The position numbers and the translations under genes are program-made. Under the pieces are notes generated by a model, which did not search any database, had not been told where the DNA came from, and saw only the letters and a program-made list of their open reading frames with translations. From NCBI GenBank assembly GCA_017448105.1, contig JAFSMC010000005.1, positions 1 to 34,839 on the forward strand: DNA of 34,839 nt, given 5' to 3'. The stretch comes from a bacterium. GTDB taxonomy: Bacteria > Bacillota_I > Bacilli_A > Mycoplasmatales > Mycoplasmoidaceae. This document shows, in pieces, positions 6,819-9,478 of the stretch. Position 1 is the stretch's first letter; every line of letters starts with the position of its first letter.

Positions 6819-7319
6819 GTGGAAATAAATAGCAATAAAGGAATGTATCTTGAACAACTTGTTAATCGGACAAGTGCGTATTTTATTGCTAATAACTTGG
6901 GAATTATTGAAAAAAGACAAATTCCAACTAGAGTTTTAAAAAAGATCAATGAAAAAACCGCCATAGTTAAGCTTTTATCTAAAGCAAAAGTGGATTATTT
7001 TATTTATTTTAATAATATTTATTGTGAAATTGAATGCAAAGAAACAAGCAAAAGCTATCTCAACCTTAATTTGGTGTTAAAACATCAACATGAATATTTA
7101 CAAAAATTGAATGCATTAAATATCCATGCATACTTGTTAGTCTATTTTTCATTCTATGAAAAGATTATGGCCATTAACTATGCAAAATTAACGCAATTAA
7201 TTACTGTTAAAAAACTAAAAAAGAAAATTAATTTTAAAGATCTTAAATTATGTGGGATAGAAGTTCCCATTGTTTATCCTGGAATCTTGGACATTACTAA
7301 AATAATTAACCACTTTTAA
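6819..7319 (+). CDS. recU: Holliday junction resolvase RecU
   Basis: RecU is the Firmicute-type Holliday junction resolvase, used in recombination and repair. This 166-residue protein lacks the long N-terminal tail of the B. subtilis protein but keeps the core: NSNKGMYLEQLVNRTSAYF at the start, then a PD-(D/E)xK-like active site with Asp59 in KVDYF and Glu72-x-Lys74 in IECKET, followed by LKHQHEYL (about residues 87-94). These match the catalytic Asp and ExK of B. subtilis RecU. Start: GTG 6819 keeps the conserved NxG segment; the first in-frame ATG (6843) would cut it off, and a TAA lies upstream in frame. No clear ribosome-binding site is visible. The 3' end overlaps the convergent rpiB gene by 14 bases. 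Confidence 0.85.
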   Translation: MEINSNKGMYLEQLVNRTSAYFIANNLGIIEKRQIPTRVLKKINEKTAIVKLLSKAKVDYFIYFNNIYCEIECKETSKSYLNLNLVLKHQHEYLQKLNALNIHAYLLVYFSFYEKIMAINYAKLTQLITVKKLKKKINFKDLKLCGIEVPIVYPGILDITKIINHF

Positions 7320-8205
7320 GCTGCAAACCACAGTTTGCTAATGAATTATTTTTAACTTTAGTTTTGTTTTTTAAAAAAAGATCAACCATTTTTTTTGCTT
7401 TCATAAAGCTAATAAATCTGCCACCAAAGCCTAAAACGTTGACATCATATTGGAAGCTATTAAGTAGTTGTGATTTTTTATAAGCATTAATACAACGTAA
7501 GTAATCAAATTTATTAACAGTATTACAAATGCCCATTCCCGAACCACAAATTACAATTCCTTTTTGGCCTTGGTTTAACATTATTTGACCTAGTTTAATA
7601 CCAAAGACTGGATAATCACACGAATCTTTAGAATATGTTCCAGCATCAACTACTTTAAAGTGTTTTTCATTTAAATAAAAAATAATCTTATTCTTTAGTT
7701 CAACACCAGCATGATCGCTAGCAATAATGATAGAATCATTATGATTAGCAAAATTAACATTAGTTTTGCTGTTTGATTCAATAAAACTGTTATGCAAAAT
7801 TTCTAGTCGTTTTGAGTGTCTTCCTCCTTCAAAAGTAGTAGATAAAAAAATTTTGATAATTTGAATAATTTTCAAACAGCAAATAGTTTTATAGCCAATG
7901 ACCAAAACATTGGCATTATTATGCAAAATAGAAAGTTGAGCTAACTTAGAATTGTAAGCATTAGAACAGAAAAAATCTTTTTGTTTACTAAAGTAAATGA
8001 ATCCATAACTATCATATTCATCAATGACAATAATTTTGTCATAAGTCATTTTAAGACTCAAGGCAAAAGTTTTTTTTCTATCTTCTTTGCTAAACAATTT
8101 GTAATCAAAGCTTGTGTTTTGTTTAGAATTTTTTTTTAAACAATGATGTTTAAAACATTTAACTCATTTTGCTTTATGTTTGTTAACCAAAAATAGAACT
8201 TTCAT
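7306..8205 (-). CDS. rpiB: Tandem RpiB/LacAB-type sugar-phosphate isomerase, composite active site
   Basis: RpiB interconverts ribose 5-phosphate and ribulose 5-phosphate; LacA/LacB are related galactose-6-phosphate isomerase subunits. RpiB is normally about 150 residues and works as a dimer with shared active sites. This 299-residue protein holds two RpiB-like halves. The first (1-145) has lost the N-terminal Asp-His pair and the catalytic Cys (IDEYD at 61-65 in place of ICGTG) but keeps LHNNANV (His95) and FEGGRH (125-130). The second (158-280) keeps SDHAG (Asp164, His165) and VICGSGMG (Cys220) but has FQYDVN where HNDxN should be and lacks the FEGGRH tail. The halves therefore look complementary. 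The substrate, ribose or another sugar phosphate, cannot be decided. ATG 8205 was chosen by frame. It is convergent with recU. Confidence 0.85.
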
Positions 8206-8293: not shown

Positions 8294-9478
8294 TTAAGCA
8301 ATAATTTCAGTTACGTTTCCAGCACCAACTGTGTGGCCGCCCTCACGAATTGAGAATTTAGAACCTTTTTCAATAGCAACAGGAGCGATTAATTCAACAG
8401 TAATTTCTGCATTATCGCCAGGCATAATCATCTCTACACCAGCTGCAAGTTCAATTGCACCAGTAACGTCAGTTGTTCTAAAGTAGAATTGTGGTCTGTA
8501 TCCTTTGTGGAATGCAGTATGTCTACCACCTTCTTCTTTCTTAAGTGCATAGATTTGAGCTTTGAATTTCTTGTATGGTTTAATTGAACCAATCTTTGCT
8601 AATACTTGTCCACGTTCAACATCTTCTCTGTTAACACCACGAAGTAAGATACCAGCATTATCACCAGCTTGAGCAAAGTCAAGAGTTTTTCTAAACATTT
8701 CAATACCAGTTACAACTGCTTTTCTTGTTGGTTTAATACCAACAATTTCGACTTCTTCATTTAATTTAACAGTTCCACGTTCACAACGCCCAGTAACTAC
8801 AGTACCACGGCCTGTAATTGTGAAAATGTCTTCAATTGGAAGTAAGAAAGGTTTATCAACTTCTCTTGTTGGAGTTGGAATATATTCATCAACTTTATCC
8901 ATTAATTCTTGAATCTTAGCTTCTCATTCTGGATCGCCATTTAAAGCTTTTAATGCTGAACCAAATACCATTGGAGCATTATCGCCATCAAATCCATATT
9001 TATTTAATAAGTCACGGATATCCATTTCTACTAATTCTTTAATTTCTGGATCTGTGACAGTATCACACTTATTAACAAAAACTACAATTTTAGGTACACC
9101 AACTTGTCTAGCTAACAAGATGTGTTCACGAGTTTGAGGCATTGCCCCATCACTAGCAGCAACAACTAGGATAGCTCCATCCATTTGTGCCGCACCTGTA
9201 ATCATATTTTTAACATAGTCAGCATGTCCTGGACAGTCAATGTGAGCATAGTGACGTTTTGCTGTTTCATATTCAACGTGAGCAGTATTAATTGTAATAC
9301 CTCTGGCTTTTTCTTCAGGGGCACTATCAATAGATGCATAATCTTTTGCTTGTGCTAAACCTTTTTTAGACAAGTAAGTACAAATTGCAGCTGTTAATGT
9401 AGTTTTACCATGGTCAATATGACCAATTGTACCAATGTTTAAGTGTGGTTTTGTACGATCAAATTTTCCTATTGCCAT
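8294..9478 (-). CDS. tuf: Elongation factor Tu
   Basis: EF-Tu carries aminoacyl-tRNA to the ribosome as a GTP complex. The 394-residue protein is full length. The P-loop GHIDHGKT is at residues 19-26 (Ile replaces the commoner Val), followed by the switch I segment [20 protein letters not shown] (about 81-85), NKCD (about 136-139) and GSALKAL. Domains 2 and 3 follow ([14 protein letters not shown] and the C-terminal [15 protein letters not shown]). One TGA(Trp) lies near residue 190. GC content is visibly higher than in neighbouring genes, as expected for strong expression. The start has a good AGGAG site (9485-9489) and a TATAAT at 9514-9519. It is probably monocistronic: a strong hairpin follows and polC lies upstream with its own 3' end. 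Confidence 0.98.

Follow-up and report, generated by a model that had tools for sequence, protein, structure and literature searches.

A single-chain, LacAB-like sugar-phosphate isomerase with probably one active site in a mollicute genus

A fused LacA-LacB-like gene

The window analysed here, i.e. the whole stretch of 34,839 nucleotides, carries a gene that is best read from its residues as a LacAB-like fusion in which one active site works and the other is dead. This reading, proposed in a preliminary description of the DNA, is supported by the residues kept and lost in the two halves, which are those of LacAB, as well as by relatives in which lacA and lacB are separate genes arranged in the order of the two halves. 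The asymmetric split of the residues is already known from LacAB, while the fusion into one chain is new. The gene, its parts and its neighbours are located as follows:

7306..8205, minus strand: fused LacA-LacB-like isomerase gene, 299 aa, genetic code 4, stop codon at 7306-7308
7786..8205, minus strand: N-half, LacA-like domain, residues 1-140, assigned by the mollicute LacA clade and the model fold
7738..7785, minus strand: linker, residues 141-156
7309..7737, minus strand: C-half, LacB/RpiB-like domain, residues 157-299
N-half residues: H95 (7921-7923), N96, R129 (7819-7821), H130 and R133, with FEGGRH at residues 125-130
C-half residues: D164-H165 (7711-7716), Y198 (7612-7614) and C220 (7546-7548)
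C-half, altered residues: Q252-Y253 (7447-7452) in place of His-Asn, and no GRH tail
6819..7319, plus strand: RecU-like Holliday junction resolvase, with a 14-bp tail-to-tail overlap with the 3' end of the fusion
8294..9478, minus strand: tuf (EF-Tu), upstream of the fusion on the same strand

The ORF, for which the preliminary description gave no strand, starts with ATG and contains one TGA, read as Trp in the code 4 translation; the opposite (plus) strand over 7306-8205 has many stops. As described previously, two RpiB-like halves lie in one frame: the PF02502 (LacAB_rpiB) profile matches the 299-aa minus-strand ORF in two stretches (E 3.5e-47; 160.3 bits versus a gathering threshold of 24.7), and the residue numbers given earlier for H95, FEGGRH 125-130, D164-H165, C220 and Q252-Y253 are all correct on translation. 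In contrast to LacAB, the fusion does not consist of two separate polypeptides, since it is a single ORF and no in-frame ATG, GTG or TTG start for a separate C-half was found between the halves of the window's gene. Against the curated equivalog models the fusion stays below the cut-offs for LacA (73.8 versus 164), LacB (91.7 versus 234) and RpiB (TIGR01120, 134.7 versus 138.65, the score being summed over the two halves), whereas it exceeds that of the broader RpiB subfamily NF004051 (150.1 versus 135). This is an annotation trap, as naming by NF004051 yields a plain RpiB, though the build is LacAB-like. No further PF02502 locus was found in the 505-kb draft genome to which the window belongs (G000), which is estimated to be 61% complete, so that a second RpiB may have escaped detection there.

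Structure prediction suggests that each half has the RpiB fold. For the whole chain, AlphaFold returned a model of moderate confidence (pLDDT 70.7, pTM 0.64). The N-half alone (AF2: pLDDT 83.5, pTM 0.76) matched classic RpiB structures with Z 14.9-17.2 over residues 1-134, and the C-half model matched both RpiB 1o1x (Z 17.8, rmsd 3.3, 135 aligned) and LacB 4lfk_B (Z 16.3, rmsd 3.1, 132 aligned), although these matches are not independent of the choice of alignment, because RpiB fragments were among the input rows. C-terminal fragments settled on the N-half and N-terminal ones on the C-half; the sister fusions P0002 and P0003 (from the genomes G005 and G002, respectively) were left out of the input.

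Division of the active-site residues

The crystal structure of LacAB from L. rhamnosus shows one active site per LacA-LacB dimer, to which LacA contributes Met92, His96, Asn97, Arg130, His131 and Arg134, and LacB contributes Asp8, His9, Ile10, Arg39, Tyr42, Cys65, Thr67, Ile69 and Thr73; the second site is vacant and occupied by other residues (PMC3755991). LacB Arg39 binds the phosphate of the hexose-phosphate (PMC3755991). LacA H96, N97, R130, H131 and R134 are all matched in the fusion, by H95, N96, R129, H130 and R133, as are LacB D8, H9, Y42 and C65, by D164, H165, Y198 and C220. These nine traced pocket residues are invariant without exception in the three fusions known to us, with a chance expectation of approximately 3e-7 (derived from 58 invariant columns among the 290 of the three-fusion alignment), and they are also invariant across six LacA-LacB pairs.

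The mirror site is predicted to be dead, as both the Asp-His pair and the catalytic Cys are absent from the N-half, and the C-half has Gln-Tyr for His-Asn and lacks GRH; thus, neither half holds the full set expected of an RpiB subunit, i.e. Asp-His, Cys, His-Asn and GRH. The loss of complementary residues from the halves, as claimed in the preliminary description, is therefore real, but it was not caused by the fusion, since relatives already show it in their unfused LacA and LacB.

The pocket departs from that of LacAB at the position of LacB Arg39, which is S195 in the window's fusion and Ser in all three, and at that of Thr67, which is Ser222 in the window's fusion; moreover, little or nothing is left of the LacB C-terminal tail. 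Lys106, at the place of RpiB Arg113, was considered as a compensating phosphate ligand and rejected, the residue being Asn in G002 and a Lys also occurring beside Arg39 in other pairs. The Gly following the catalytic Cys is replaced by a TGA-coded Trp in G005 (P0002 residue 223, L063) and by Phe in G002 (P0003, L064).

Distribution and genomic neighbourhood

A homologue search, as proposed in the preliminary description, recovered the same fusion in two further species: among 59 related genomes and a 298-genome sample of the order, it was uninterrupted only in G000, G002 and G005, all of one genus. Given its presence in two other species at 32-36% identity, the fused ORF is not a chance artefact. 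In 392 genomes of the phylum searched with a joined LacA-LacB profile, no other uninterrupted two-half frame was found among the matches listed, the other two-half matches listed (G163, G454 and G340) having a stop inside. Phages and plasmids showed separate lacA and lacB or a single RpiB, with no single-chain fusion among the matches listed, and a contig scan with P0001 as query returned two distant single RpiBs and nothing else. The open-licence papers searched contained no description of a fused LacAB. At several IMG/VR phage loci, i.e. L089 (1001-1429), L090, L094, L095 and L097-L099, an RpiB-like domain apparently lies at the end of a longer open frame; in L089, the only one in which this motif was read, FCRTGQG replaces the usual CGTG/CGSG.

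Several other lineages harbour tandem lacA-lacB genes, always with lacA first. The two genes are in frame with each other and separated by just one stop in G006 (junction GAT TAG TTT ATG AAA), G036, G256, G163 and G065, so that the fusion could be reached by the loss of one stop codon. The RecU-like neighbour also lies beside the fusion in G002 and G005, and tuf is adjacent in G002 as well. All three fused genomes have the locus order recU-cls-tsf-pyrH-frr-cdsA-dxr in common, where the names other than recU are our own reading of the sequences.

Descent of the two halves

A 75-domain tree places the N-half inside the mollicute LacA clade (99/95), where it groups with LacA of G006 and G036 (96/89). 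The fused halves form groups of their own (98/87 and 92/91), and both lie on long branches. Fast evolution of this kind could reflect a functionless tandem duplicate of RpiB in decay, a possibility already raised in the preliminary description. It is disfavoured, and we regard it as very improbable, since three species have retained the ORF and its site residues at the divergence and chance level given above and no second, intact copy was found elsewhere in G000 (61% complete).

The origin of the C-half is less straightforward, as it groups with mollicute RpiB in the same tree (99/96). Its profile scores in the three fusions are higher for RpiB (138/128/122) than for LacB (102/104/115), and S195-C196-D197 of the window's fusion is RpiB-like. 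All this would suit a LacA-RpiB chimera whose second site disappeared by convergence, an origin different from, though mechanistically compatible with, the one we prefer. Against such a chimera, which we consider rather unlikely while still a serious contender, all three C-halves carry LacB marks at or near the dead site: GRH is missing, and Asn228 and Tyr253 are characteristic of mollicute LacB, while none of the RpiBs used for comparison has them. Furthermore, the C-halves of G002 and G005 retain the Thr-His-Tyr of LacB, LacB lies directly downstream of LacA in other lineages, and the AU test does not reject a tree that has the C-half within LacB (p 0.068). Over 17 diagnostic columns, the LacB:RpiB counts of the three C-halves are 5:9, 4:7 and 7:7, and the LacB of G022, a true partner of the LacA next door, has likewise drifted towards RpiB-like residues (9:6). 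Because the LacB marks occur in all three C-halves and the G022 LacB is similarly mixed, we favour descent of the C-half from LacB, with drift, over descent from RpiB.

Genome content and probable substrate

All three fused genomes possess rpe, transketolase and DeoC. Among 20 genomes, a PF02502 member was present in 12/12 with a transketolase match versus 3/8 without one (Fisher p 0.0036, the counts not being independent by descent), and RpiA was found in none. Genes may be hidden in the drafts, whose estimated completeness is 61% to 82%. Three genomes of the same genus without the fusion (G001, G003 and G004) yielded no rpe, transketolase or DeoC, as if the pathway had been lost together.

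G000 contains a cluster of deoD, deoC, a pyrimidine-nucleoside phosphorylase, cdd and a sugar phosphomutase, together with tpi and gpmI; rpe follows the genes gap and pgk, and tkt lies after a uridine kinase. Apart from rpe, tkt, deoC, deoD and the phosphorylase, these names are presumed by us from the sequence. For nucleoside-derived ribose to enter rpe and transketolase, a ribose-5-phosphate isomerase is required, and no candidate other than the fusion was found. Judging from this genome content, its substrate is therefore probably ribose 5-phosphate rather than galactose 6-phosphate, and the enzyme probably links nucleoside breakdown to central sugar metabolism.

A true galactose-6-phosphate isomerase (EC 5.3.1.26) of the tagatose-6-phosphate pathway, i.e. 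LacAB in one chain, might nevertheless be expected from the LacA ancestry of the N-half and from a LacAB pocket mostly kept except for Arg39. In addition, the unfused pair of G006 sits in an apparent lac-type cluster with a PTS EIIC. We consider this function improbable, as LacD gave no match above cut-off in the 20 genomes, a PfkB-type kinase was found in none of the three fused genomes, and PTS EIIC was found neither in G000 nor in G002 (G005 has one). The tagatose-6-phosphate context of LacD, kinase and PTS is thus missing from the draft of G000; HPr is a weak match there and absent in G002. The Ser in place of Arg39 and the short or missing LacB tail also speak against this function. However, Arg39 is a weak mark of hexose use, because E. 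coli RpiB also has an Arg at this position in our residue comparison: its replacement by Ser195 fits a shorter substrate, while an Arg there is compatible with ribose 5-phosphate.

Unfused pairs occur in both kinds of setting. The small, nearly complete genomes G045, G050 and G055 (L024, L026 and L015) have a lacA-lacB pair with LacB Arg39 and a DeoC, and no rpe or transketolase match, PfkB kinase or LacD was found in them, so that a LacAB pair is not always tied to the pentose pathway. In G022, G036 and G037 (L014, L007 and L016), which have rpe and transketolase, no PF02502 enzyme other than an unfused lacA-lacB pair was found. The sequences of these latter three genomes suggest that heterodimeric ribose-5-phosphate isomerases are more widespread in mollicutes.

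Proposed mechanism and relation to known enzymes

With ribose 5-phosphate as the probable substrate, we consider it likely that the gene encodes a single-chain isomerase derived from joined lacA and lacB, with one site at the interface. An adjacent lacA-lacB pair would have been joined in frame by loss of the intervening stop, giving a single-chain aldose-ketose sugar-phosphate isomerase whose two RpiB-type, Rossmann-like domains are expected to pack on each other as LacA does on LacB. The only active site would lie between them: the N-half would provide H95 and N96 for ring opening and substrate orientation, and R129, H130 and R133 on the phosphate side, while the C-half would provide D164-H165, Y198 and C220, the latter as catalytic base. 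The main job of the enzyme would be the conversion of ribose 5-phosphate to ribulose 5-phosphate, connecting the breakdown of nucleosides with rpe, transketolase and glycolysis.

Such an enzyme shares with L. rhamnosus LacAB (PDB 4LFK-4LFN, PMC3755991) the single site per dimer, the division of residues, the order of lacA before lacB and the dead second site. It differs in being one chain instead of two polypeptides, in having Ser195 for LacB Arg39, in the missing helix 7 tail of LacB, and in that no lacCD or PTS was found with it. With the RpiBs of E. coli, M. tuberculosis and M. genitalium (6MU0) it has the fold, the catalytic residues and probably the reaction in common, and the C-half resembles RpiB at S195 and D197; RpiB, however, forms homodimers whose two sites are equal, whereas the fusion has two unequal halves and one site. 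The unfused mollicute pairs (G022, G036, G006 and others) have the same halves, but as two polypeptides.

RpiB, the LacA-LacB pair, the one-frame pair with a stop and the fusion make up a natural series from a two-site homodimer to a one-site chain, and the single chain allows each half to be mutated separately, which is impossible in a homodimer. LacAB-type pairs may serve several mollicutes as their ribose-5-phosphate isomerase. For the genus with the fusion, it is tempting to speculate, with the case for and against about evenly balanced, that LacAB was captured in one chain and turned back from hexose to pentose phosphate as the host's only ribose-5-phosphate isomerase, while the unfused in-frame stage persists in relatives.
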